DNA from: Branchiostoma floridae
Taxonomy: Eukaryota > Chordata > Leptocardii > Amphioxiformes > Branchiostomatidae
Direction of reading: 5' to 3'
DNA length: 64,000 nt
NCBI RefSeq assembly: GCF_000003815.2
Contig: NC_049990.1
Coordinates: 18,159,865-18,223,864, forward strand
The position numbers were made by a program, and so were the translations under genes. The notes below the pieces were generated by a model. It was not told where the DNA came from and made no database searches. It saw only the letters and a program-made list of their open reading frames with translations. Shown piece by piece: positions 16,601-49,900 of this stretch (its first letter is position 1; the number at the start of each line of letters is the position of its first letter).

Positions 16601-19600
16601 ATTACATGAAAATACATACAAACACACAAACGCACACAAATCAGCTTGAAATGTAACTGATCAAAGCAAGATTAAGAATATGAGTTGCATCTACTTCTCT
16701 ATATATGTCAGATCATGGTAAACGATAAAAGGCAAAGTACTTTAATTTTCTAGGTACAGTTTTAAGTAATGTGGACTGTCAACATTCCCAAATCAGGGGA
16801 TAGTACAATACTTGAAAAGTTGCATTTACGGTGCTCAATGCATAACTTGTATTATGTCATACCTAGGCAGCCATAACATTTGATACAGGTGTTATATGGA
16901 CCAGGTGATGATGTATGACACAGGCTTCTCAATTGTGTCGCGCAGGCTTCCATCTTCCGATTAAATAGAACACACTCCAATGCAAGCAAAGGGAGTTCAA
17001 ATTTTTCTCAAAATTTTGATGTTCTTAAAGAATATAGTCGTTGGCGCAGGTTAAATAACCTTTGGTCATCAGGCGATCCGACGCGCGGCCGGGCTGGTAC
17101 CTTGGTTGATGCGGAATACACTGTGTTGTATTCTACATTTACGATGTAGTAAAATGTTACTTGGTGTACTACATGCCAAAAGGATGCCAGTTCCTAAAAT
17201 AATCCCTTATTACTTGAAGATATTTATGTGATTTAAGAAAGGAAAGAGCTAAACCATACCCAAAATCCATCAGAATGGAGCCCTCAGCTGTAACTTGTCC
17301 TGGTGTGATGAATATACATTGTATATATATACATGTGCATAGAAAAATACACATTGACTGGGTATGACATAGCACTGTCATTGCACAATCTATGTGTATT
17401 ACAATATGCTATAAGTGAACATTTTGCTGTTCTGTATGTCCATGGATCATTATAAGTTTCCCTATATGGTAGTGCAGTGCTATTAAGGCAAGCCGAGTGA
17501 GAGACTATTACTAGTAGTATGATGTAAGTTTTTTCTTTACCATACACGCGTGTGTATACTGTCCCTGGATGATATATTCAGTTGCTCAATTGAAGGCAAC
17601 CCTCATACAGCAAAAAGGCTCATCTGCCATAGAAAGGCACAGGTGGGTTCGAAAACAGTCTGCCTTCTGCTGCTTGCACGAACCTGAACTTCACGTCTAA
17701 CACACTATATGGGAAACCCACTTGAACTTAACACAAACGTCTTTTTCTTGTGGGAACAATGGCGCTGTGACCCCATGCACGGTGGTGGGCCTGCCCTTAC
17801 CTCGGTATGAAAAGCATACTACTTGGTCACATGTACTGGCTGATAGTAGGATTGCCAATCAGGAAGCCTCAAGATTTTTTTTTTTTTTTATTGATCTTTT
17901 AGGGTAGTCCCTTCAGTTAACGTAGTAACTGATTTCCAAGGGAGCCCTATATACATGTTCGCACATGTTCGCACAACGACGGGTTATGCCGCCCCTTACG
18001 GGGTGACACACCCGTCCGGGTGAATGATGTAGATCACCATGTGGCTGATACGAGACAGAGGTTCGCCAGGCCTCCATCCGGGTGATTTGAAGTGAATCAC
18101 CAACTTCCGACAGAAGGATTTGCACCAACGCACACCGCACCATCGCACGTGTGGGGGTTCTTTAACGTGCATGGGTTATGGCTCTCCCCATACACGGGAC
18201 CTCCATTTAACGTCCTATCCGAGGGACGACTCATTTTTCACTTGAGTAAAGTGAGGAAAGTCGTGTAAAGTGCCTTTCCCAAGGGCACAAGACCGGCAAC
18301 ACGGCAGGCGGATTCGAACCGGCGACCTCTCAGTCATGGGCCGAATGCACTACCACTGTGCTACACTGCCCCATTTTAACGTAGAATACTCTAAAATTCC
18401 ACATCATCCCCCACTAGGCCATCCCACTCCCTTCCAATGCTTTCCTTTAAAAACCTAGAAGAACCCTGCTTGTGTTTGGATCAGGGAGAAATTGTGCTGA
18501 GGGTACAATATACAGTCAAACCTGTCCATAGCGGCCACTCAAGGGACCGGACAAATGTGGCCACTATAGACAGGTGGCCTCTGTATAGAGGTGGCAACTT
18601 GTACATAAAATACCCAAGGGACCGACAAAAAGTGGCCACTATGGACAGGTGGCCCCTCTGTAGAGGTGGCCCCTAATACAGGTTTGGCTGTATTCCAATG
18701 TGTCTGATTCACTGAAGACACAAGAAGACCTAATGTAAAGATACAGTAATACTTTCAGATACAATACACCACAATATTTGTATCATTCGTCTTTTGATAT
18801 ATATTCTAGTTTTGTGTAGAGCACTCTGAACAGTCACAGCTGAAGGCTCCACCCCTGATGGGTTTGAAGTATTTAGTCTCCATTTCAGCTTGTCAATAGC
18901 AGGATATGGTTAATTTTATGTTGTTAAACTGGCTCCCTGTAGCATGTAGCAGTTTTGTACAACTGAATGATGCAAAGTGATCTTTTAGCAATTATTGTGC
19001 TCAGAGAAGAGCTAATCTTCCACTGGTCCTACATATTAGGAAAAACATATATAGATTACTGTAATTCCTGATATTTTCAATGTACTGTTATGTTCACGGT
19101 TTTCACGGTGACGACTGTAACGTGAACTTATCATTACTGATAACAAATAATTCACAGACTTTTTTTATGTGCACTTGCAGCAACAGTGAACATTTGGTTA
19201 CGAGAACAAGTTAAATTTTCTCAGACCATGAAAGTTTGGTACCGAGAAGACAAAGTGAATTACAGTATACAGTTCTAAGGTTGACATTGATCTGGAGAAA
19301 TTCCCCTTGCATGTTAATTGTCAAGTGCAAAGAACTGTTGACCATGGGTTAGCATCCCGTCATGAAGACTGCAACCCTTTTCAGCGTCCAGTGCGGTGCT
19401 TGTCAGCAAGCAACAACTGCCAGGATTCAAACTGCCATCTTTCAGGTCCATAACCACATGATGCACACTACTACTACTACATGTAGATGTTCACTTCTTT
19501 TTTTTTTGGCTGAGCTCCAATTCAAACCGGGCTTGAAAGTGTTCTTCACTATTATTAATTCAATACTTTACACATTTACATAGTATAGATGATGAACATA

Positions 19601-22600: not shown

Positions 22601-25600
22601 ACCCATGTGCAACACACCCAGCCACGCGCCAGTGCTGTCTGTTGCGCAATATAATTATTTGTAGTCCGTGAAATAACGTTACATCTGACAGCCAGCATTC
22701 TGTAACACTACTAGTACTGGAAGAAATCTTATGCAGATTTTATATTCTGATTTTAACATGATACTTACTTGTCCTCATTTTCATGTATTTGTTAAAGATT
22801 TGTGGTTAATACTAGTATTGAACAAACAAACTGTTCTGCGCGAGTGTTGCACATCTCAACAAAAGTTCTCACGCTGTGGGCAGTTGATTGGCAGTCGGTT
22901 TCTTTGACAACAGGCCGCCGGCGCCAAGCAGTCTAGGTCCAAATCCAATCATCTTAATAACCAATCAGCGTTTGATAAATGTAATGATGTACTCTGTGAT
23001 TGGTCACCGGAGAAAATACAAAAGTTACAGAGTATTAGCGCACGTGACGTTGTTTTGTGATATTGTTAGGCGCCCGTGTCGTCTGGCAAGTTTCTTCCCT
23101 AGCTGCTAACAATTTACTATTAAAGTTTCCCCATTTATCCAAGTTAAAAAAGCGGTGCGCGGTAAATAAGTGAAGAATCCAAAACTATACACTTTATTTC
23201 TTATTTCCAAAATTTCTTTTGTTTCAAAAAGACAAAATTTGTGGCAGAAAAGGGGCCGCAATATTGTTGTCAAGCGTCGATCGAGTCGGCTGTGCACTGG
23301 CGTTGGCCTCCGTGGCACAAGGTGCGGCACGCCCCCCTCCCAAGACGGACCGTCGATCGCAGCGCCCAGCACGTTGGAACGTCTTTCTGGCTACTAGTTC
23401 AAGGCTACCCCGGCACTGATCACTGCCAAAGAGGCAACAGATCGTCCTCCTTCGAGTAATGTATAACGTTCTTGGTCTATTTAAAAATAAATCCAGCCAA
23501 AGATTTCACGCCGAAAACGGGGTTACCTGAGGTCGCAGGAAACAAACGCACGCTCGTGGAAAATGACAGCACGGCCTTGTAAAACCCCACCGATTCGTGA
23601 GTGTGATGTCGTCGTTATTTTATCGTCTCGGAAAACTATTTGATGAGGGAGGGCGCAACATCGATCGCACGAGGTCGACATTCTTTTATTCAATGACGGA
23701 AGAAATTGGCAGAATTTTTCCATGGGCTGACGAACTGGCTAGAGCCCTGTTGCGAAGCATAAAAAATCCAAAAATTTTCGTGTCTGGAGAAATTATCCCC
23801 GGGCCAGATCACTGACGGCTGATTCCCCGTGCTGAGAGAGGGCGGTTGTCGATTACTGAATTACGGGAGTAAAAGAGGCAACCGACATCCAATCTCAAGC
23901 GCATGATTTTCCTCTCAAATTGCGGGAAATTGTGTTTTAGAGGGTTTGAAAATCCAAATTTTACCGGGGGAGCATGCCCCCGGACCCCCTAGAATGCGAG
24001 CGCCTGCGGCGATCGTCTCGCGCCTCCGGCGCTCAATACCCCCCTCAGAAATATTTGGACGCATACTTTCAAGAACCTGGCGGGGACGCTGGTTAAGAGG
24101 GAGGGACGCCCGCCGTGATGTGTTGTAAGATTGTATCTCCCATGGCCAGTAGGTATTTGGTATTGTAAGTGGGAGGGACGCACGTCGTGGTGTGTTGTAA
24201 GATCGTGTCTCCCATGACCAGTAGGTATTTGGTATGGTAAGGGGGAGGGACACCCGCCGTGGGGTGTTGTCAGATCATATCTCCCATGGCCAGTAGGTAT
24301 TTGGTATTGTAAGGGGGAGGGACGCCCGCCGTGAGGTGTTGTCAGATCGTATCTCCCATGGCCAGTAGGTATTTGGTATTGTAAGGGGGAGGGACGCCCG
24401 CCGTGAGGTGTTGTCAGATCGTATCTCCCATGGCCAGTAGGTATTTGGTATTGTAAGGGGGAGGGACGCCCGCCGTGAGGTGTTGTCAGATCGTATCTCC
24501 CATGGCCAGTAGGTATTTGGTATTGTAAGGGGGAGGGACGCACGTCGTGGTGTGTTAAGGGTTCCCTTCCCAGGAATCTCCCATGGCCAGTAGGTGTTTG
24601 GTAATGTGGGGAGGGATGCGTGCCGTGGTGTGTTGTAAGATCTGATCTCCCATGGCCAGTAGGTCTTTGGTATTGTAAGGGGGAGGGATGCTGTACGGGT
24701 TCCCTCCCCTTGAATCTCCCACGGCCAATAAGTGTTTGGCAATGCTCGATCCAAAGGGGCTTGGAAAGGTGTGTTTTGGGCTCCCTCCCCAGCTGAGACC
24801 ACCTGAGACCAGTTGGTGTAAGCCTTTCTATATGTACCATGACGGTACCTGTTTCCCCTAGCCACTCCATATGTTTGAAGAAGCCTGTCAACTGACTGGT
24901 TACTGTATGTAGCAACACGACAGCACCTGTCTCCCCTAGCCACTCCATATGTTTGAAGAAGCCTGTCAACTGATTGGTTACTGTATGTAGCAACACGACA
25001 GCACCTGTCTCCCCTAGCCACTCCATATGTTTGAAGAAGCCTGTCAACTGACTGCTTACTGTATGAAGTAGCCTTTCTGTATGTAGCAACACGATGGTAC
25101 CTGTCTCCCCTAGCCACTCCATATGTTTGAACAAGCCTGTCAACTGACTGCTTACTGTATGAAGAAGCCTTTCTATATGTGGCAACACGACGGTACCTGT
25201 CTCCCCTAGCCACTTCATATGTTTGAAGAAGCCTGCCAGCTGACTGGTTACTGTACGAAGAAGCAACATTGCTGTCCAGATATGTTTGTGGGTTTTGTCT
25301 AGTCTTTGTGACTGTAGGAAGGGACGGCTCTGATACAGCACTGTAGAAGCGAATGTGTTCATCATCATCATCGCTGTCTGACTCTAGGGTGTTTGGGAGA
25401 CCAGGCAGGGGCCTCTGTGCAGCAGCTAAATGATCGGGAATATCCCAGTAGGTGTTTGGGAGACCAGGCAGGGGCCTCTGTGCAGCAGCTACAAGATCTG
25501 GAATCTCCCAGTAGGTGTTTGGTAGACCAGGCAGGGGCCTCTGTGCAGCAGCTACAAGATCTGGAATCTCCCAGTAGGTGTTTGGTAGACCAGGCAGAGG

Positions 25601-28600
25601 CCTCTGTGCAGCAGCTAAATGATCAGAAATCTCCCAGTAGGTGTTTGGGAGACCAGGCAGAGTCCTCTGTGCAGCAGCTAAATGATCGGGAATATCCCAG
25701 TAGGTGTGTACTGTACTAGTGTCTGAGCTCCCATGATAAATAGACTGAACAGTTTGGAGGTTTGCAGGCAATGACCTACAAGAGACAATACCTCCAGGAG
25801 GTGTCTGGAACGAATGGTCTCGTGGGCTCTTGTTTCTTAACTTTTGTAGGCATCTGCTCAGAAGCAACCCTGCAAAGAGTAAGACTAACAAAATCCCCCC
25901 TGTAGAGACAACAACTGGGATGACAAGAGTCTCTGGTGCTGGGGTATTCTGCTGAGGATTCGCCTGCATCGTAGACATTGATGCCATCATCGTCAAAGAC
26001 CTGTGCTCTTCCGTATTTGGGGGCCTGGTTTTAGGTTTGGATGTTCGAAAGCTTGCTTGATCTGTCGTTGTGTCACCGTTATATACAGGACATTCTTTGT
26101 GGACCTTCAAAGAGAATTTAGGAATGTTGATGAAAACTGGTTGGCCATATTTAGAAAGCAGAATGCAGGTTAACTGCTGTGTATTGGTAGTGGGTGTATG
26201 GAAACTGCTGTGATTCTGACTGGCTTCTGAATGTGTGGTGCTGACTGTCCGTGTATCTGGTGTGTTGTCAACCATTATGGCAACATCGGCCTGGCTTGTG
26301 TTCCCCACTCCCATAGAAACCAGCTGTAAGATGGAGTTATCAGGCTTCAAGGCTACCGTAATGCCCAGGTTGTGTTCCCACACCTGCTTGCACTTCCCCT
26401 CGTAATAACGTTCCATTTTCTCTGGATGGCCATGAGCCGCAAAGACAACAAAAGGTGGCTGAGTGGTGATGCTTCTCTCAGAACTATCCCCAAAATGCAT
26501 GAAACATACACTGGGCCCTTGGTTCTTCTGTGTGGGGCGAGGTACTGTCTTCACAGAATCAAACTTCCATCGAAGTTCGAGAGATGTCTCACTTCTTCGT
26601 TTGTCCTTTTTGACACAGAGGAAGAAGTTGGGCACCTCAACAGATATGACTTGTCTGTATTGGATAATTCCATCATGCAAGGCAAGGCTCCATCCCATTC
26701 TATGTGGCATTTCATCATGTACTGTTGCCAACTTGTCACCACTGACATAGAAGGTTGACAGTTCCTGCTGTTGCCATATCCCTGATGCCCCCCAATCCAG
26801 ACAAGACATAGCGCTTCCCTGCATGTAGAACTCGTCAATTTTCATGCCTTCGAATATGGTCTGGGGAAGGCTCTTGATGCTATTGCCCCCCAAGTTCAGG
26901 TATGTCAGGTACCGGTTTGGGCCATGGAGCCAGGCAGAGTCTACAACCCGTAACTTGTTGTTTTGTAAGTTCAGCCATCTAAGCGTTGTCATGTTCCTGA
27001 AGCACCCTGGGTCAATCTGTTCTATCCTGTTATTGGACAAGGTCAGGAAAGTGAGCTGCAAGCCAGTGAACCAACTCTCTTTGACATGTGTCAACCTGTT
27101 GAAATCCAAGCCCAACCTAGATAGCCTCCTAAACCCACTGAAGGTGTTTTCCCCCACTTCTTCAATCTCATCATCTATGAGAACTAAATACGACAGACTT
27201 ATTCTAGAAGTAGAATAGTGTAAGGCTGACAGTTTCCTTGCTGATAGAACACCAATTGGATTGCGTCTTAATGCAAAAGCATGCATTTGCATCTGAGGCA
27301 AGCAAGATTCAGCAGGAATATTACTGACAGGAACAGCACTACCTTCCTTACCATTACATAAGATGCATACGCTTTTGGCATTGTCGCGCCCAAAAGGTAT
27401 GATCATGGTGTCATGCACACAATTGGACCAAGCATCTCTGTTACAATGGGGCCAGCAGAGGCTAGCTGAAGCTGTACATGCTGTCAAAAGTACCAAATAA
27501 TATAGCATGATCACAGAAGCACCCATTCTAAAAGACATTATGATTAAGATACATCTCTTTGTAATCATAGATATCACTATTATCACTAAATATCAGGTGT
27601 CTGTATCAATGGTGGGGATGTCCCGATAGCTCAACTGGTAACAGTCTTACAGTTGAGCTCCTGGTTCCAATGAGTTAGTAACTGGTAGACTCGGTTCAAT
27701 CCTGGAAAAGGCATCTCAGTTGGGGCTGCACCCATCTTTTGGAAGGGGCACAAAATGAGGGGTATGGGTCGGAGAAGTTGCCTCAAGCAAGTTAAGGAGA
27801 AGGGCTGGGAAACCCTGCCTGCAAAAATATACCCTGCTACTGAAACAGCAAGGAAACTTGCTGCCCTGTGTGCCACTAGGCAGTACAAGGGTCCGAACAA
27901 ACTATCACTTGGCACTAACCAGTGTTTGTCTGTCTGTCTAGTACTGTAATGTAACATCACAATTTTTTAAAACAGAGACATACCTTTCGGTAGAAAACAT
28001 TGAAGATCCCCTTCCAGTCAGAAAACGTGGCTCCTCCCAATGCAGCTGTGCCTGTTCTGGCCTTGGTGTATGCAAGGTCTGACTTTTAATGATCACTGTG
28101 ACACTGTGCGTTTTATTTTAATATGGATTAGGCACATAGAAATATGTGTGGTGTCACAGAGGAATGCCAAATTCTCCAGGCCTCGGAAAACTCTTCTTCC
28201 TGACAGACTCATTTCCAGACATCAATTTTCAGCCATACCATGAAATGATGAGATGCTGCCTCATGTTTTATTGATGGACAGGATATCATTTGAAAGCCGA
28301 GAAGTAAATTTTGGAACAATTTCATTTTTCCATTGTGTGTTTTATACTGATAATGGACATGTATTTATTTTGAACGAACCTTGTTCCGACCAAAAAAATA
28401 CTGTTGTTTTGGTTGATGAAATCCAATGTTATTTAAGTTAAGATAGCCAGTGCAGAAAGAGGTTCATGGTGTGTTTTGGGTTCCCTCTCCAGGGAATCAG
28501 GGACAAACGCATGCTGTGATGTTTAGGTCCCCACCCCCGCCCCTGGAATCTCCCATGGCCAATAGGTGTTCGGTAATGTGGGGAGGGACGCACGCCATGC

Positions 28601-31600
28601 TTTTTGGGTTCCCTTCCCTGGAATCTCCCATGGCCAGTAGGTATTTGGTATTGAAAGGGGGAGGGACGCACGCCGTTGAGTATTGTAAGATCGTATCTCC
28701 CATGGCCAGTAGGTGTTTGGTATTGTAAGGGGGAGGGACGCACGCCGTGGTGTGTTGTCAAATCGTATCTCCCATGGCCAGTAGGTATTTGGTATGGTAA
28801 GGGGGAGGGACGCCCGCCGTGGGGTGTCATAAGATCGTATCTCCCATGGCCAGTAGGTGTTTGGTATTGTAAGGGGGAGGGATGCTGTTTGGGTTCCCTC
28901 CCCTTGAATCTCCAATGGCCAAGAAGTGTTCGGCAATGCTAGATCCAAAGGAGCTTGGAAAGGTGTGTTTTGGGCTCCCTCCACAGCTGAGACTACCTGA
29001 GACCAGTTGGTGTAAGCCTTTCTATATGCAGCAACACGATGGTACCTGTCTCCCAGAGCCACTCTATATATTGGAAGAAGCCTGCCAGCTGACTGGTTAC
29101 TGTATGAAGTAGCACCATTGCTTTCTAGATATGTTTGTTGATTTTGCCTAGTCTTTGTGATTGTAGGAAGGGACGGCTCTGCTACAGCACTGTAGAAGTG
29201 AATGTGTTCATCATCATCATCACTGTCTGACTCTAGGGTGTGGGGGAGACTAGGCAGGGGCCTCTGAGCAGCAGCTAAATGATCTGGAATCTCCCAGTAA
29301 GTGTTTGGGAGACCAGGAAGGGGCCTCTGAGCAGCAGCTAAATGATCAGGAATCTCCCAATAAGTGTGTGGGACAGAAAGCAGATGGTCCTGAGCAGCAG
29401 ACACAGTACTAGTGTCTGAGCTTCCATAGGAAATAGACTGAACAGTTTGGAGGTTTGCAGGCAATGACCTACAGGAGACAATAGCTGGAGGTGTCTGGAC
29501 TGAATTGTCTTGTGGGATCTTGTGGAGGCAATTCCTCCGAATCAACACTGCAAGGAGTAAGAATAACAGAATTCCCCCTGTCGAGACAACAACTGGGATG
29601 ACAAGAGTCTCAGGTGCTGATGTGTTCTGCTGAGGATTCGCCTGCATCGTAGACATTGATGCCATCATCGTCTGGATACTCTGGAACTGGTTTGTCATGG
29701 TCAAAGACCTGTGCTCTTCTGTAGTTGGGCTCCTGGTTTGAGGTTTGGATGTTGGAAAGCTTGCTTGATCTGTTGTCGTGTCACCTTTATACACAGGACA
29801 TTCTTTGTGGGCCTTCAAAGAGATTTTAGGAATGTTGAAAGAAATTGTTCCACCATATTTGGAAAGCAGAATGCAGGTTAGCTGCTGTGTATTGGTAGTG
29901 GGTGTATGGAAACTGCTGTGATTCTGACTGGCTTCTGAATGTGTGGTGCTGACTGTCTGTGTATCTGGTGTGTTGTCAACCATTATGGCAACATCTGCCT
30001 GGCTTGTGTTCCCCACTCCCATAGAAACCAGCTGTAAGATAGAGTTATCAGGCTTCAAGGCTACTGTAATGCCCAGGTTGTGTTCCCACACCTGCTTGCA
30101 CTTCCCTTCGTAATAACGTTCCATTTTCTGTGGGTGGCCATGAATCATAAAGACAACAAAAGGTGGCTGGATGGTGATGTTTCTCACAGAACTATCCACA
30201 AAATGCATGAAACATATACTGGGCCCTTGGTGCTTCTGTGTGGGGCGAGGTACTTTCCTCACAGAATCAAACTTCCATCGAAGTTCTAGAGGTGTCTTAC
30301 TTCTTCGATTGTCCTTTTTGACACAGAAGAAGAAGTTGGGCACCTCGACAGATATGACTTGTCTGGATTGGATAAACCCATCATGCAAGGCAAGGCTCCA
30401 TCCCATTCTATGTGGCATTTCATCATGTACTGTTGCCAACCTGTCACCACTGACATAGAAGGTTGACAGCTCCTGCTGTTGCCATATGCCTGATGCCCCC
30501 CAATCCAGACAAGACATAGCACTTCCCTGCATGCTGAACTTGTCGATTTGCATCTCATTGAAAATACCTTGAGGAAGGTTTTTGATATTATTTGCCCCTA
30601 AGAATAGCATATTGACCATGCTTGTACCAAGGAACCAGGCAGGGTCTACAACCCGCAACATGTTGTTTTCGAGGTTCAGCACCAACAGGTTAGGGAGACC
30701 TGCGAAGCACTCTTGGTCAATCTGTGCTATTCTGTTATTGGACAGGCTCAGCACACCGAGGTGCACTAAGCCAGTGAACCAACTATGCTTGACATGTGTC
30801 AGCCTGTTGAAATCTAGGCCCAACTCGTGCAGATGAGAAAATGCAGGCTCATTGTGATCATTGTCAACCTCATGAGCAAAGAAGATGTGATCCTCCATGT
30901 CTGTGATTTCAGCATCAATCAGAAACAAAGACGACATAGAATTATCAAAGTCAAAAGACTCCAGTTTCTGCACTGATAGAAAACCAAATGGATGGCCTCT
31001 TATCGCAAATTCTTTTTGCATGTGCAATACACAGTCTGAATCAGGGGCAGAAGTCATCCTAACAGTTGTTACATTCCTTCCTAATTCCTGACACAAAATG
31101 CAGGGGTCCTCTTTTTCTGCAGTAAATGTTGGGACTTTTGTCTTCTGAATACAGTTGGACCAGGGAACACTGGAACAACCAGGGAAGCAGCATTTAGCTG
31201 GGGCTATAGTGGCAGTTACGATCACCAAGACCAGGCAAAATTGCTTGATCTTTGGAGTATCCTTACTAACAGCCAATAGATTCATCTTTCTGACAAGACA
31301 AGGATAGGATTTCATATCATGAGCCCAACTATGGCTTCTTACAGTGCTTGCCTTTCTGTTTGTGGGTATGATTTTCCCACTTTGTTACAGAAAGAATTTC
31401 ATCCATTCCCCTTTGACAGGCAAAATCATGACATAGTCATCAACTGCACTACAAATCTTTTTAAAAGATGAAGCACTAAGTCTTGTACTTACTACATCAG
31501 ACAAAATGCTCTCTCCACTTCTGACAAAATACAATCACCACTTCTGACAAAATGTACTGACTCTCACTACTTCTAACAGAATACAATCACTGATTCACTT

Positions 31601-34600
31601 ATGACAAAATGAATCACTACTTCTAACAGAATTACACACAAACAATTGCTAATTCTTGACAAAATGCACTCACTTCTTACTGACAACATGCATTTGTCAG
31701 CATCTCTGAGTTCCAGCAAAATGCTTTTACTAAAAACTTCTGACCAAATACACACACTATCTCTGATAAAATGTACTCACTACTTCTAACAGAATCACAC
31801 ACAAACAATTGCTAATTCTGACAAAATTTACTCAATGCTTACTGATAAAATGCACTTGTCAGTATTTCTGAGTTCTGACAAAATATTTTCACTACCAGAT
31901 ACTAATGAGCAAATGCACTCACTTCTTTTGAAAAAAAAATACTTCTTCTGACAAGATGCACTCACTACAATTTTCCCCTCAAAATACAATCATCACTTCT
32001 GGCAAAATGTACTCACTACTTACTGACAAGATGCACTCAGTATTTCAGAGGTCTGCCAAAATGCTTTCTCTACAACTGACCAAATGCACTCACTATCTCT
32101 GAAAAAATGTACTCATAACTTCTGACAAGATGCACTTACAAGTACTACAATTTGCTGCTCAAAGTACAATCACCACTTCTGACAAATTGTGCTCATAACT
32201 TCTAACAGAATACAATGTTGTTATCACTCATTTTGAAAAAAAAGTACTCAGTACTTACTGACAAAATGCACTTGTCAGTATTTCTGAGTTCTGACAGAAT
32301 GCTTTCACTACCAGATGCTGATGAGCAAATGCACTCACTTCTTTTGAAAAAAAATACTCACTACTTCTGACAAGATGCACTCACTACAATTTTCCCCTCA
32401 AAATACAATCACCATTTCTGACAAAATTTACTCACTACTTCTACAATCACTTAGTCTGACAAAATGTACTTATTACTTACAGACAAAATGCACTTCAGAG
32501 TATTTCAGAGTTCTGCCAAAATGCTTTCTCTACAACTGACCAAATGCACTCACTATCTCTGAAAAATTGTACTCACTACCTCTGACAAGATGCACTCAAA
32601 ACAATTTTCCCCTCCACATACAATCACCACTTCTGACAGAATGTACTCACTACTTTTAACAGAATAACACTCAAACATTTGCTTATTCTGACAAAATATA
32701 CTCACTACTTACAGGCAAAATGCTCTTGTCAGTATTTCTGAGTTATGACAAAATGCTTTCATCATTATTACTAAAAATGCGCCCAGTATCACTATCACTA
32801 TAAAAATTTACTCAGTACTGACAAAATACACTCACTACAATTCGCCACTTAACATGCAATTGTCACCTCTGACAAAATACACTCAGTACTTCTGAGTTAT
32901 AACAAAATGTCTTCACTACTAGATACTAGTGACCAAATGTACTCACTACATGTACTTCTGAAAAAATGTACTCACTACTTCTGACAAGATGCACTCAATG
33001 TCTACAATTTTCCCATCAAAATACATTCAGCACTTCTGCCAAAATCTTCTACTTCCTACAAAATGAGATCACTACTTCTGACCAATTTATGCACTCACTA
33101 TCTCTGAAAAAATTTACTTCCTACCTCTGACAAGATGCACTCACTACAATTTTCCCCTCAAAAAACAATCACCACAGTCACTTCTGAAAAAACATGCACA
33201 CTACAATGTACTTCTAACAGAGTACAATCACTGACAAAATGTACTCGGTACTTACTGACAAAATGCACTCAGTATTTCTCAGTTCTGACAAAATGCTTTC
33301 ACTACCAGATACTAATGACCAAATGCACTCACATCTTTTGAAAAAAATGTACTCACTAAATCTGACAGAATACAATCACTTAGTCTGACAAAATGTACTT
33401 GCTACTGACTGACTAAATGCTCTCAGTATTTCTGATTCTGACAAAATGCTTTCACTGGTACTCCCCAAATGCACTCACTACTTCTGAAAAAGATGTACCC
33501 TTTTTGACAAAATGTATTCACCCCCATTCTCCTCTCAAAATGGGAATAGTTCAAAGGAAATTTCCTGGAGGGGGGGGGGTGCCTCCAGACACCCTTAGAT
33601 TTCTCACATCACTGGCACCCAATGCAAAGCTTCACTTTGTGTACCAAAATTGAGAACTAACAAATTAGAGCTAGCAAAATACCCTTACTTGCCTGAGAGT
33701 TCAAATGTTGTGCATCAGAATCAGTCGGATGCTCGTGGACTGAACACTCTTCTCTCCCTCACCTGCAGTAAAGATGCTCTTAACATGTGTCTCATCCCTG
33801 TACATCAGTGCCTGACCATACTGCAGTATGATGCGTTGGGAGATATGGCTGTATTTTGTGTAAATGTGTTATATAAGGGACACAGAAATATGCAATTAAG
33901 AAAAAGATATCAATTCCCCAAGGCTGTGGGGTACTCTTCTTCCTGATACTAGTAGTCAGACTAATTTCCATTTGCCACTGGTCATCTGATGATGAATTAA
34001 ATATTTTTTTGTGAAATGGCCAAGCTAGTAACACACAGTAACGTTACTTTACTATAATCATTAAAAGAATAAGAATCGTATGTAAAGAAAGAAATTAAAA
34101 AAGCTGAGTGTTAAAATAACCTCCTTGGTCAACAAACGATGTCCTGTTTGAAGGTGAAAGCGTTGTATATATAAGATAAACGTCTAAAATTAGCAAAAAG
34201 AAAAAAGAATATATAAAATAAGTCCCTCACATTGGACAAGAACTTTCGTTCTTCAGCTTCATATACATGTAGATGGTAGCATTAATGACAGCATAGATAA
34301 TTGAGGTACTGGCATCTGCATTACGTAATGGTGACTTTTATGCTATATAAATTAAATGCTTTAGCCTATGTCACAGTAACAACACAGGCACCATTTGCAC
34401 AGAAGGGTGTACATGTACAGAAAAGTAGTGGCCACCATGAGCAGATGCTCGCCGGAATAAAAACACACTCCACAGTTCAATTGTTGTCCATTTCAATCCA
34501 TGAGTATTTACACTATTAAGTTACATATTCTTAGAATGTATCGTATACATTGTAAAAAAGTGAAGGCAGGAATGGCAGAGTGAATGAAAAGCGTAGATTC

Positions 34601-37600: not shown

Positions 37601-40600
37601 AGGCAGAGAGAAACTACTACAACTGTAACTTCAGAACTGCCTACAAAATCACTTCTAAGTGAGTTCACTGATTTCTTTCTATCACAATCTGTAGTGAACA
37701 ATAGCTACGAATTAGCACTATGTTGGTATGCACACTACAGGCTAGGGGTACAGACACTACTGGGGGTATGGACACTACATGTATGTTGGTATGCACACTA
37801 CAGGGGTACAGACACTACAGTGGGTACGGACACTATTGTGGGTATGGACACCACTGAGGGTACGAACACTAGTGGCCTGGGGAATACAGACACTACTTGG
37901 GCTACGGACATTACTGGGGGTACGGACACTACTTGTCCGTTTGGGTACGGACACATCACATGAAGTACAGATACTACAGGGCCGCCATCACCACAGGGGG
38001 TAGGGACACTACAGAGTGTAGGTTATAGCTAGGCAGTAAGGACAGTACTGTTGGTATGGACACTACCAGGGTACAGATGATATCATTTCGTTGTACATGG
38101 TGTTACATGTATTTTAGAAAAGCTGTTCATGACAGCCATGGTGTTTTAGTGGTAGTAAACCTTTCTCTTTCATTTTTCAGAGTTTTGCAACAGGATCCAT
38201 ACCACAACACATGTCTTCCACTGCACGTAGCCTGCCTCACCGAGCTCAAGAAAACAACAGGTGAATGTCTCAATTATGTGTTTATGTCTGCTTAGGAAAT
38301 TTAAAACACAGCTTTGATACACTTAATACATCAATTGGCCATTAAAGCAACTTTCCCCACTATATAGGTGTAAAAAGAGGTACCTGACTTTTGTTGTGGA
38401 GGTGGTGGAAGGAGAGGGATGGACTCCACCTTTTAATACTGTAACCTAGACACAGTGGATAACAACCCACTCCCCTACTGCTTCTATTTCAAAAAGACTA
38501 TGGGACTATCTTCCCCATTACCTAACATTGCATAGAATGTGATAAAGCTTGGTTTTTGATTATCGGTCTTGTTGTTTCAGAGTTGTTCTATCTTGGCCAC
38601 AAGTTAGTGGACCTGTATCCCAATGACCCTGTAAGTACTGTTTTAACAATGTACAGGTTTTTTCTAATGTTTATCGTGAATTCTTCCCTTCTGGAATATG
38701 CTTGTTTTGCAGTACCAATGATTATTCCTAGGAGGCATTCCTACACTGTAGCTTACAGTACCAACTTCATTCAAATCATAACAGCAATATGTGCGTATAG
38801 CAAAACTTACAGTGTAGGCCATAACCAGCAATGTACATTTGCAAGATATCCTAAGAAATGATATTGTTTTGTGTTTAAACTGTCTATTTGTGCCTTGTTT
38901 TCCCAGGTTGCTTGGTTTGCTGTTGGTTGTTACTACTTGACAGTGGGGGGAAAGCATGACGTGGCCAGGAGATATCTCACGTAAGAATCATGACTCAACC
39001 ACACAGCTTAACAACAGTTAGAACTCTCAATGATTATCGTATCTTCATTAACTTGTAAAATGTTGGATTGGTTGCATCATTTTACTGCCCCACAGTAAGT
39101 TCAATGCCTTTGCAAATGTTTTAATCTCTTCCTTCAATGAGTACTCAATTACATGTTAATAATGTGCTTTTACTAACAGACTAAGCCTAAAAGTTTTATA
39201 CCTGAGTTCAAGTCTATTCTGGTACTGTATAGTAATCAGTACATTGCTATTGGGTATTTTGACCTGTACCTACATGTAAATGATTTTCATCATCATCATC
39301 TCGCGCGAGTCGCCCAAACCAAGTCTAGCCTCTCTATCCAGATGTTTCTGTCCCCCGTAACATTCTACGATGATTTTCTCCGTAATATAACTAGTACCCA
39401 GTACCGGTACACATCCCTACTACAGAATGGTCACACTGCAGTATTTCCATGCCTTGTCCCACAGGAAAGCCACCACCCTAAACAGAATGTTTGGCCCTGC
39501 CTGGCTGGCGTTCGGACACTCCTTTGCAGAAGAGGCAGAACATGATCAGGCCATGGCGGCCTACTTCACCGCTGCCCAACTTATGAAAGGGTGAGAAATC
39601 AACACCTTCATTCAAACTTTTGTGTGAAGAAAACTGTTATGGGAATATGCCAAATAGCAATTATTCAAGCAACTGAATATGATTTTGGAAATGGTTACAC
39701 ATTTCAGGTAGCATCCAATACCTTTCGTGAGCGTCACTGACAAAAGGTAGTGGATGCTACCTGAAACGTGTATCTTATTACCTGGATACGGGAGATCGTG
39801 CAGCGCATTGGGCTCAGGCCCAAGAGGTCCCAAGTTTGAATCCTGTCGTATCATTGATCTGGTGTCCTTGGGAAAGGCACTTCATACGACTTTCCTCACT
39901 TAACTCAGGTGTAAATGAGTACCTATCTGCGGCTTGTGGCAGTGACAGGCCTTTGTGCAGAACTGTTTGACCATATGTAGAAGATGTTGATGAAGCAAGG
40001 ACATATGATGTTGTCAGAAATGACAGTGACCATTTTCAAACTTACCGACTTGCTTGAGCAACATTTATACCAAGCGTATGTGGAAAAACTTGTGGAAATG
40101 CTGTTTTAGTGTATGACAATATGTAAAATAACATCCATCACACAGACCTGTGCTAAAGATCAGATGTTTTGCCCCCCTCCCCACCCCACCAACAGTTGCC
40201 ATCTGCCAGTGCTGTACATTGGTCTGGAGTACGGCATGACCAACAACCTGAAGCTGGCCGAGCGTTTTTTCAAACAGGCACTGAACATCGCTCCCGAGGA
40301 CCCCTTTGTCCTGCACGAGATGGGCGTGGTGGCCTTCCAAAATGGAGAGTGAGTCAACTGTAAACTTGTAACTATTTTTTTCCAAGTGTGTATTCTCAGT
40401 AATTCAGGGTTGGATACTTATTTTGGGGAGCAGGTCTACATGTAGGTGCATTGGAAAAGTTGGAGTGCACAACATAGAATAAAGTAGAATGTCAGCAGAA
40501 CCTGATCACAAACCATACTTCCAGTACATGTACATGTACATGTATATCTATTCAGGGTATCATATTAATGTCTGAAAATAAACAATGCCCTGTTTGTGTC

Positions 40601-46980: not shown

Positions 46981-49900
46981 TCAATAGAGAAGGACTTTGC
47001 CTGCCATCTCCTGCCTTGTTAGGCTACTTGCCCGCAGTTCGTCGTCGTTATTGTCCTCTTTTGTTCTTGTGTCGCTGTCTTCGGTGTTCCATTCATTTCC
47101 GGCCATGGTGCACAAGCTCCATTCCGAATACACGGTCACGTCCGAGTCTGTCGATGTCTGGTGAGGCACATGTAAGGTGCAGCGAGCTGATAAGACAAAG
47201 AAACAACATTGTACGATCATTACCAGAAGACAAAGCGAGTACATATGGGAGATAAAGACAGATCTTGCTCAGTGTCACATACAAAAGGTAGAGCATGCTA
47301 CCAGAAATGTCTGATCATTTCCAAACTCATGCTTGAGTAACTGCTATGTGGAATACTGTAAATGCATTTAAGTTCGCGGGGATTTAATGTAGTGGTAGCG
47401 GGAAAAAGGACTTTTCGCGGTGGATTTAAGTTCGCGGTAGCACCATAGACTGCAGTCTAATACCATGATAGAAAAATATTCGCGGTGGTTTTAATTTTGC
47501 GATGAAGTGGTCACCGCGAATATTAATCCACCGCGAACATTTCTGCATTTACAGTATTTTATTACCTGGAAACCTTCATTGACGGAGATAAAGACAGTTT
47601 TGAGGTATATCATTATCATTTTTGTTGTTCTGTGTTCATAGGGGCATAGCCTGATATTAATCTGTATCCTGGTCCCTATCAGACAACCCTATTTTGCAAT
47701 GGATGCTGGGTTAGGGTAACAGGTTCTGGATTAAAGCAACAGGTACTGGAGTAGGGCTACCACGGTAAGGAAATTGGAGAGACACCAGGATATTTGTGAC
47801 AATTGTGAAAAATGTGCTCAATGATGATTTTTTTCATCACTATTAAGTTTGGGAAGAGCATGAGCACCTGAACATTTAACAGATAGATAGATTTAACAGC
47901 CATCAGTATTGAACAGCCTTATGTGGACCTACGTATATGAAGTCTAACTCGAGAGAGCGGTACGTTTTGCCGGACATATCTACAAAGTATGCACAGATGA
48001 TAAAAATTAGATCGATAAGTATACTCACGAAATTGCACACTATTCAGTCACTACAATTGATAAGTAAGCTCCCAAAGTTGCACTGTATTCAGTAAAATTG
48101 CTGCATATATTACGGCACCCCAGTTGACGTTCCCTTTTGAACTACACACCAGTTTGTACGACCTTTAACAGAGTCATTGATCAGTTGTTTATAGAAATTA
48201 TGTCGATAAATATAATCACGAATTTGCACACTATTCAGTCACTACAATTGCTAAGTAAGCTCCCAAAGTTGCACTGTATTCAGTAATATTGCTACGCAAA
48301 TTACGGCACCCCAGTTGAAGTTCCACTTTGAACTACGCACCCTTTTGGACGGCTTTAACCGAGTCAGTGATTAGTTATGTAAAGACGATTATGCTCATTA
48401 AGGCGTAGATCTATCCAACAGTTTGATGTGCATTTCCAAACACTGAACAACAGACGGCGTCGTCATGAAGCCAGCTAACCATCTGTCTGCCTAACCGTTC
48501 ATTTTCTTTCCTCCTAATCGGCGGATTCACACTCCAGATGATGGCTTGTGAGGATCAAAGACCAACTGTCATCACCACTCAACATCAATGACGTCATCCG
48601 CGGTGTGTTTGTGTGGTTGCCATGGTTTCGTTTATAGTCATATCAGTTCGTGTACAATATCACGGAGATTATACAACATATTCATTGGCTAGCTTCGCCT
48701 CCCACACAGTGGATAGAGTCAATTGCATATTACTGTGTGGGTGTTTGTTGCCTTTTGTTTTGACATTTTCGAAACCTTTGTGAAACATTTCGGAAATACT
48801 TCAGTGGGCTGGGAAGAGAGCAAGATCATATATCCCTGCATTTCGCGCAAAGTACGAGGAAATATGCCTGGATGGCATGCCACGCATTGACGGGCTATAA
48901 CCAAAATCACAAAAATCAACCATTTGAAAGCAAATGATACAAATTGTTAGAATCTGTTCTAATAGTGAGAGAGAGAATCACATAGATGTTTGAAAACTGT
49001 TAACGTTCTAGATAAACATATATTTTTGCAATTAATTTCGAAATGTTTTTTAATGTACAAATACGTTTAAACATGTTCAAACCTTTATTTTCGATTTTTT
49101 TAAATAATTCATAACTATCTTTAATGAAATATTCTCTTATTTGAAATGGTTATAATTTATTGCAATGTAGGATGTGGAATGATGTATAGTTGGCAAGCAA
49201 TATAGATAGGAATTACATGTTTTGTCAAGGAGAGTTGACACGTCTCAACTCTTATGTTGTTTGTAGAAAGCATTCGCCCGAAATTGGCTATTAGTTTATT
49301 TGACATGAAACACACGAAAATTACTCTGCTCTATCCCCTCAACCTGGTTATCTTAATGTCTTTGATGGTTTCGGGACAGTATGTATTTTGCGGTCAAGCT
49401 GTGCGACCTATATCAAATACAATTCTATCTGCAAACATTGGTCTTAATTCGGTGCGCATCTTTTTGTATACATGTACTCCCAGCTACTGGTTCCAATTAG
49501 TATAGTTGGTAACTGGGATCGGTTCAAATCCTGGGAAGGGCATATTGACTGGGGCTACATTCCTCTTTCGGATGAACAATGGAGATCTCATATTCGAGGA
49601 GGTGCCTCGATCACGAAACTTCAATGTTACATGTGCTTTTCCTGCTTAGCACTCAGCATTTGGGAAAGAGTATGGTAGCTGAACACACACCACTACCAAT
49701 GGGCTAGCCCCCTGCTGTAGCGATTGCACAAAGCTTTGCGGCCCAGGGCTACAGAAACGAATATTGGCCGATGCATGCACCATTTGGTGCGGGAAGGACT
49801 TTTTTCACTATGTGCCACACTAGGTACTACAAGGTGGACAACTACGCGATCATTTACAGATTGCCGAGATGTCATTGGAAGAGAATAGCTTTGCGTTTCA

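Follow-up and report, generated by a model that had tools for sequence, protein, structure and literature searches.

FAK presents tandem docking sites to the SH3 and SH2 domains of Src, and their binding breaks both inhibitory contacts of Src (PMC4140816). The SH3 site of FAK comprises residues 363-QKEGERALPSIPK-375, its last proline (374) lying 23 residues from Y397 (PMC6528292), and the SH2 domain of v-Src binds pYEEI, capturing the isoleucine at +3 (PMC3507883). In amphioxus, the leucine-rich repeat (LRR) receptor BbLcLRR is a substrate of Lck and acts as an inhibitor of signalling when studied in Jurkat cells (PMC8211107). All of these papers are cited here from excerpts. We analysed a 64,000-nucleotide stretch of the Branchiostoma floridae genome (the window; contig NC_049990.1, positions 18,159,865 to 18,223,864), in which two genes on the minus strand, gene 1 and gene 2, encode LRR receptors with tandemly repeated, tyrosine-containing tails. 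The genes are two members of a large, apparently single-exon family of lancelet surface receptors. We lean towards the view that their tails form a multivalent docking scaffold for Src-family kinases, in which serine sites would provide a second input.

A large receptor family in the lancelet genome

An initial annotation of this DNA had presented the two genes as a pair. A search of the genome (513 Mb, 431 contigs) showed instead that both belong to a family with at least 92 tail-module loci. Using gene 2 as query, at least 113 matching pieces were obtained (49 of 1634 candidates scored), with stops in 9 of the 113 and listed frames of 825–1315 codons. Combined with the places matching a degenerate DNA pattern for TYWEIPD and the listed places for TYWPWE, these pieces formed at least 70 clusters on 18 contigs. 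With 55 residues from the tail of another member (L044) as query, 159 matches were obtained; hand-picking one per gene among the matches listed yielded at least 92 clusters on 19 contigs, a lower bound with 150 of 206 candidates scored. The two degenerate patterns occurred at 46 (TYWEIPD) and 315 (TYWPWE) genomic places, compared with none for the backward controls, and the motifs in the window are thus not due to chance. Pfam contains no described family that matches, and none was found in literature searches among open-licence papers.

Open frames were read for 44 loci and for three more (L045–L047) picked among divergent or clustered places. Most counts given below refer to 41 of the 44 loci; left out were L002 and L004, which duplicate L035 and L017, and L043, which is split across frames. 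For L001, L003 and L005–L008 the stretch read starts inside the gene, and N stretches cover most of the L021 tail and part of L007. A few loci have short frames (266–534 codons), and pseudogenes or genes interrupted by assembly gaps may be present among the family loci. As far as read, members contain LRRs, a cysteine-containing region, a single membrane segment and a tail of similar build; the median pairwise identity of their ectodomains is 34%. The three additional loci carry the same ectodomain and tail modules, with the array visible in L045 and L046; L047 stops before it.

Conserved motifs in the tails

The tails, which are 254–616 residues long in the stretches read, have a tyrosine fraction of 0.037 compared with 0.019 in the ectodomain. 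Alignment with MAFFT gave the tail consensus SCRsLPa..., tY.EIPD..AaAqRPLP.LPhTYwEIPD, later fYaaaae, Yg and the array rraslpl.t.PNTYWPWei. The tails are built from two blocks. The first is a module, Y-x-[E/D]-I-P-D-(6 aa)-R-P-L-P-x-L-P, occurring once to several times per tail and often followed directly by x-T-Y-x-E-I; it would combine a putative pYxEI ligand for SH2 domains with a putative class-I SH3 ligand at a fixed distance of 12 residues. The second is a C-terminal array unit of R-R-x-S-L-P plus N-T-Y-W-P-W-E-I, most often of 28 residues and of 24 in gene 2. The initial annotation contained neither the fixed YxEIPD-6aa-RPLPxLP module nor the RRASLP serine sites.

Among 68 RPLPx[LFIV]P sites from the 41 tails, for which flanking positions were defined solely by their distance from the site, tyrosine was present at −12 in 67. 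Relative to this tyrosine, position +1 is free, +2 is acidic in 62, +3 is isoleucine in 67, +4 is proline in 63 and +5 is aspartate in 66 of the 68 sites. The strict form RPLP.[LF]P was present in 38 of the 41 tails. In the array, 226 of 231 units retain the tyrosine, a unit being defined by at least four of the six other core residues with the tyrosine unscored. When this position was left open, it was occupied by tyrosine in 203 of 203 matches to [NSDK][TS].WPW and in 151 of 152 matches to.WPWE (42 loci, L043 included).

The ratio of nonsynonymous to synonymous differences (pN/pS) between array units of the same gene was 0.27 for the core (bootstrap 0.21–0.33) and 0.83 for the spacer (0.77–0.90; 39 genes), and between genes it was 0.41 and 0.88, respectively (40 genes). 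For the module, comparison between 41 genes gave 0.25 (0.17–0.34) for HTYWEIPD and 0.31 (0.20–0.43) for the RPLPxLP part versus 0.68 and 0.89 for the upstream and downstream flanks; in array and module alike, windows were picked by amino-acid match and flanks were left as they stood, both of which tend to enlarge the contrast. In a best-match control with three source genes, these windows ranked top among all 15-residue tail windows, with about 12 of 15 matches against medians of 7.3 to 8.7. These comparisons support the idea, implicit in the initial annotation, that the tyrosine motif is under selection and not simply carried along by the repeat.

Passive coding minisatellites, expanded by slippage and kept alike by homogenisation, could in principle produce such tails with functionless motifs. 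The array periods of 63, 78/96 and 72 bp found by Tandem Repeats Finder (TRF) are all multiples of 3 and the core is conserved at synonymous sites as well, as a passive origin would predict; frame-shifted units in L023 (see below) and an in-frame stop in array C of gene 1, which runs into a dispersed repeat, point in the same direction. Slippage would act on core and spacer in the same way, yet their pN/pS values differ strongly within genes, and this contrast weakens the passive explanation. In addition, the modules keep both tyrosine and isoleucine at 67 of 68 sites despite widely differing synonymous sites (pS 0.66). We regard functionless repeats as highly improbable.

Binding sites for 14-3-3 proteins read RxxSxP, class-I SH3 ligands read RxLPxLP and Y397 of FAK lies in the context YAEI. 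Motifs were scored in the 41 tails, which hold 680 tyrosines, with expectations from 100 shuffles. Y.E[IVLM] was found 112 times compared with 5.9 in shuffled tails, RPLP.[LF]P 65 times compared with 0.1 and R..S.P 212 times compared with 15.2; the commonest distance from one tyrosine to the next was 21 residues. By these patterns, the tails carry a predicted class-I SH3 ligand beside Y-x-acidic-I, the combination that marks a docking scaffold of the FAK kind.

In the docking scaffold that we favour, the LRR region and the conserved post-LRR region would face outward. Upon ligand binding, Src-family kinases would dock via their SH3 domains and phosphorylate tail tyrosines, and SH2 domains bound to pYxEI would hold and activate the kinases, as FAK activates Src. 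The serine sites could recruit 14-3-3 proteins, and more array units would offer more docking sites. Phosphorylation, binding of Src and 14-3-3, signal gain by copy number and the topology, as far as this goes beyond the sequence, are what we infer here.

The high counts of R..S.P and RPLP.[LF]P might also indicate an adhesion or cytoskeletal scaffold, whose tail clusters SH3 and 14-3-3 proteins at membrane contacts and uses the tyrosines as a secondary switch. However, the upstream tyrosine and the isoleucine at +3 are as fixed as the proline motif, suggesting that phosphotyrosine binding is central, and such a scaffold seems very unlikely to us. Another role for the tyrosines would be that of YxxPhi sorting signals, with repeated AP-2 sites setting the endocytic rate without phosphotyrosine signalling. 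YSEI, YWEI, YCEI and YAEI all match YxxPhi, and Y..[ILVMF] was found 182 times compared with 132 in shuffled tails, as sorting would fit; this excess can, however, be accounted for by the 112 YxEI-type sites. YxxPhi does not demand an acidic residue at +2, proline at +4 or aspartate at +5, and the near-fixed acidic +2, Ile +3, Pro +4 and Asp +5 of the module go beyond its needs. Moreover, YWPW of the array does not fit YxxPhi, and sorting leaves the RPLPxLP motif at its fixed spacing unexplained, which makes this role unlikely.

We also scored readings as immunoreceptor tyrosine-based inhibitory (ITIM), activation (ITAM) or switch (ITSM) motifs and as PI3K, STAT3, Crk/Nck or NPxY sites and rejected them, none being enriched like YxEI. 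The ITIM pattern [IVLS]xYxx[ILV] was depleted (14 sites in 10 of 41 genes compared with 30.7 in shuffled tails), ITSM was found 3 times compared with 5.5, and ITAM showed a small excess (5 sites in 5 of 41 genes compared with 2.5). The existence of BbLcLRR, an Lck-phosphorylated amphioxus LRR receptor with ITIM-like motifs (PMC8211107), makes it conceivable that the family consists of inhibitory ITIM-type receptors recruiting SHP or SHIP phosphatases. The depletion of ITIM and the low ITSM count speak against this, as does position −2 of the module tyrosine, which is mostly P, H or N. The BbLcLRR motifs, DDYATV, HDYSEV and HDYDDP in the excerpted text, count against it as well, although they likewise have no Ile, Val or Leu at −2 (PMC8211107), which leaves some room for ITIM-like use. 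Overall, we judge inhibitory receptors of this type to be quite unlikely.

The Grb2-type pattern YxN was barely enriched (42 compared with 32.4 in shuffled tails). A narrower form, Y[VTIML]N[VTIAW], was found 22 times in 22 of 41 genes compared with 2.5 and may represent a further docking site. A TYVNVTD stretch, which we take to resemble a Grb2 SH2 ligand, recurs in family tails (e.g. L033, L040 and L044).

Several observations weigh against a Src-family docking scaffold. YWPW is the most numerous tyrosine motif (205 of 680 tail tyrosines) and to our knowledge fits no known SH2 ligand class; hence the proposal is at its weakest where NTYWPWEI is concerned. The tyrosine three residues past the last proline of RPLPxLP is present in 44 of 68 sites only. 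From the last proline to the following YxxI-type tyrosine there are 24 residues at 17 and 15–30 at 27 of the 68 sites, so that the 23-residue spacing of FAK is nearly matched at 17 sites only. The four-core-residue criterion under-counts badly decayed array units. TAC makes up about 90% in the array core compared with 54% in ectodomains, and since synonymous codons are biased too, part of the core likeness reflects shared descent or homogenisation. The inner side carries the more positive net charge in 32 of 41 members, which speaks for the proposed scaffold, but the remaining nine break the positive-inside rule, and the density of N-glycosylation sequons is only moderately lower in tails (0.62 per 100 aa, versus 1.04). 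Finally, persistence of repeats with loss of their tyrosines, named beforehand as evidence that the motif is not selected, does occur in places: several array C units of L023 are shifted in frame and read YLTxTGHGRY for NTYWPWEI before the normal frame resumes, and single units in gene 2, L025 and L027 have the tyrosine replaced. Elsewhere the tyrosines are kept.

Copy-number turnover, gene models and ectodomain

The array copy numbers reported initially (5/5/7 for gene 1 and 2/1/5 for gene 2) proved correct, the single array B copy of gene 2 being degenerate, and copy number also varies among other close paralogues. From the 25 most alike pairs we picked 16 close pairs by hand, leaving out L007 and L021; the numbers of YWxW units were unequal in 11 and equal in 5, with the L005 and L006 counts truncated where the stretch read ends and the L023 count lowered by its shifted frame. 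L032 and L040 have 9 and 4 units at a synonymous divergence (dS) in the tail of 0.13, L024 and L026 have 7 and 4 at 0.18, and L015 and L017 have 2 and 9 at 0.77. The ratio of nonsynonymous divergence (dN) to dS was mostly 0.3–0.8 by region, indicating that the family genes are constrained; the exceptions come from the pair L005/L006, whose LRR part gave 0.85 and whose post-LRR part gave 2.48 at a dS of 0.009.

Genes 1 and 2 can be aligned across most of their length. Their dS is about 0.8–0.9 in the N-terminus and LRRs (gene 1, 26806–27586) and 0.11 after the LRRs (24275–26806). This drop right after the LRRs implies that the two halves differ in age, for which gene conversion or recombination close to the junction of LRRs and post-LRR region is the simplest explanation. 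A comparable drop, from 0.24 to 0.01, is seen in L005/L006.

A more far-reaching proposal would be that the lancelet has expanded about 100 or more receptors in which the length of the minisatellites genetically determines signal gain. Every unit would add one serine and one tyrosine docking site, and slippage would alter unit number at a higher rate than that of ectodomain change, with the result that receptor sensitivity would differ between individuals. We hold this proposal to be doubtful, if possible.

Table 1. Positions of gene 1, gene 2 and their parts in the window.
Feature	Position	Strand	Basis
Gene 1, LRR receptor open reading frame (ORF), single exon, 1103 aa from upstream GTG	24275..27586	-	ORF list, Pfam
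Gene 1, first ATG (codon 7)	27568	-	
Gene 1, presumed signal peptide, hydrophobic core	27479..27496	-	read by eye from sequence
Gene 1, LRR region	26822..27187	-	Pfam LRR_8; span by pattern
Gene 1, post-LRR ectodomain, conserved Cys and Trp	26081..26806	-	
Gene 1, membrane segment	25859..25924	-	hydropathy; span by pattern
Gene 1, array A: 5 x TYW[ED]I[PS]D and 4 x RPLPGLP, 63-bp unit	25394..25705	-	TRF, pattern
Gene 1, array B: 5 x Y[GE]VARG, 78/96-bp units	24854..25219	-	TRF, pattern
Gene 1, array C: 7 x TYWPWEI alternating with RxxSLP, to in-frame TGA	24278..24733	-	TRF, pattern
Array C of gene 1 past TGA: two further in-frame YW units	24092..24274	-	TRF row ends 24094
Dispersed repeat beside array C of gene 1, outside the gene	23800..24091	-	query ended at 23800
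Gene 2, LRR receptor ORF, single exon, 930 aa	28523..31315	-	ORF list, Pfam
Gene 2, presumed signal peptide, hydrophobic core	31211..31228	-	read by eye from sequence
Gene 2, LRR region	30530..30928	-	Pfam LRR_8; span by pattern
Gene 2, post-LRR ectodomain	29789..30514	-	
Gene 2, membrane segment	29537..29602	-	hydropathy; span by pattern
Gene 2, array A: 2 x TYWEIPD with RPLPGLP and RPLPSLP	29243..29365	-	TRF, pattern
Gene 2, array B: one degenerate copy, YRVALG	29051..29068	-	pattern
Gene 2, array C: 5 x TYWPWEI and degenerate TSWPLEI, 3 x RRASLP	28547..28927	-	TRF, pattern

Two ORFs with LRRs, a membrane segment and three tail arrays had been described, and the ORF list, Pfam, hydropathy and TRF confirmed them. 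The left edge, set at 23915, had to be corrected: gene 1 ends at 24275, and 23915–24253 consists of post-stop array and dispersed repeat. The stop is a TGA inside an array unit, where neighbouring units have CGA. The adjoining dispersed repeat was found at at least 40 places at 90–100% identity, the copy of the window included (40 of 1144 candidates scored), and may have replaced the original 3′ end of gene 1. In the gene 1 tail, an overlapping frame is open for 487 codons, a length reached in none of 300 synonymous shuffles. Such a long second frame is to be expected since the repeat unit lengths are multiples of 3, and a second protein was set aside as a candidate because synonymous shuffling destroys the repeats. 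From an ATG, the second frame comprises 460 open codons (23989–25371, minus strand).

The family layout is a hydrophobic N-terminus, a cysteine stretch, LRRs, a post-LRR region, a Thr/Ser-rich stalk, a membrane segment and the tail. Pfam LRR_8 was found in 31 of 31 members scanned (E 3.8e-39 and 5.2e-21 for the two window proteins), and a strongly hydrophobic 19-mer (mean Kyte–Doolittle 2.1–3.4) in 41 of 41. By sequence, with the signal peptide recognised by eye alone, the family fits LRR type I transmembrane receptors. In the two full window proteins, Pfam reported nothing besides LRRs above its cut-offs, and neither a TIR nor a kinase domain; without TIR, membership among the Toll-like receptors was ruled out. 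LRRNT and LRRCT caps and Ig domains had no Pfam match in 31 ectodomains (E up to 1) or in the two full proteins, on which basis variable lymphocyte receptors (VLR) and LRRIG proteins were ruled out as well.

Together, post-LRR region and stalk comprise about 263–309 residues. The alignments comprised 31 of 35 (A2) and 27 of 29 (A3) listed ectodomains, members with masked stretches being excluded from A3. Over 27 members, 11 columns of the post-LRR region are invariant, three of which (CLD) had served to pick members. A profile of this region gave zero matches to Protein Data Bank sequences at E up to 10, and Pfam gave stray matches only (best E 0.0084, in 1 of 27 members). AlphaFold models of the two window ectodomains had a mean predicted local distance difference test score (pLDDT) of 35.9; 57 of the 577 residues reached at least 70, and the blocks of 70–80 were in the LRR part. 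A tblastn search against phages gave no match.

Elsewhere in the window, the region upstream of gene 2 (31500–33147) contains numerous short tandem arrays (TRF), most of them with 23-bp units. A tandem array of 58/18-bp units is located at 37719–37933, and two copies of a 191-bp unit at 48000–48376. An Rfam tRNA match of 36.7 bits at 18302–18370 (minus strand), not called by ARAGORN, is perhaps a tRNA-derived element.

Comparison with known systems

If the docking scaffold is correct, a chordate near the vertebrate base would possess around a hundred receptors with a multiplied FAK-like Src docking module, a design for signalling that literature searches made for it did not bring up. The receptors would provide a natural copy-number series of phospho-docking sites for testing how multivalency sets their output. 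They would also be candidates for a recognition system in an animal that lacks adaptive immunity of the vertebrate type. The post-LRR ectodomain, which has no assigned family, is a structural target.

Among amphioxus LRR membrane proteins, FrLRR is likewise tied to SH2/SH3 adaptor signalling, through Grb2, but differs by its folate-receptor domain, Slit2-type LRR and predicted glycosylphosphatidylinositol (GPI) anchor (PMC10199209, cited from an excerpt). BbLcLRR resembles the receptors of this family in being a type I LRR receptor from amphioxus whose tail contains several tyrosines. It differs in having 699 aa, with LRRNT, LRRCT and WSC by SMART; the three tyrosines mapped in its tail have an ITIM or ITIM-like context, and the excerpted text reports no arrays (PMC8211107); the window family has no Pfam match to LRRNT, LRRCT or WSC. 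Immunoreceptors with ITAM or ITIM also have receptor tails with repeated YxxI/L motifs, whereas in the lancelet tails ITIM is depleted, the commonest spacing between tyrosines is 21 residues and a predicted SH3 ligand lies in between.

FAK differs from the lancelet family as a cytosolic kinase with one such site, compared with a receptor tail that has several modules and, in the two full window proteins, no kinase domain by Pfam. The order is also reversed, the lancelet tyrosine preceding the proline ligand by 12 residues within the module. In FAK, the proline ligand (RALPSIP) and the nearby tyrosine together recruit and activate Src (PMC4140816, PMC6528292). What both systems share is a class-I proline ligand, predicted in the lancelet tails, near a tyrosine with an acidic residue at +2 and isoleucine at +3.

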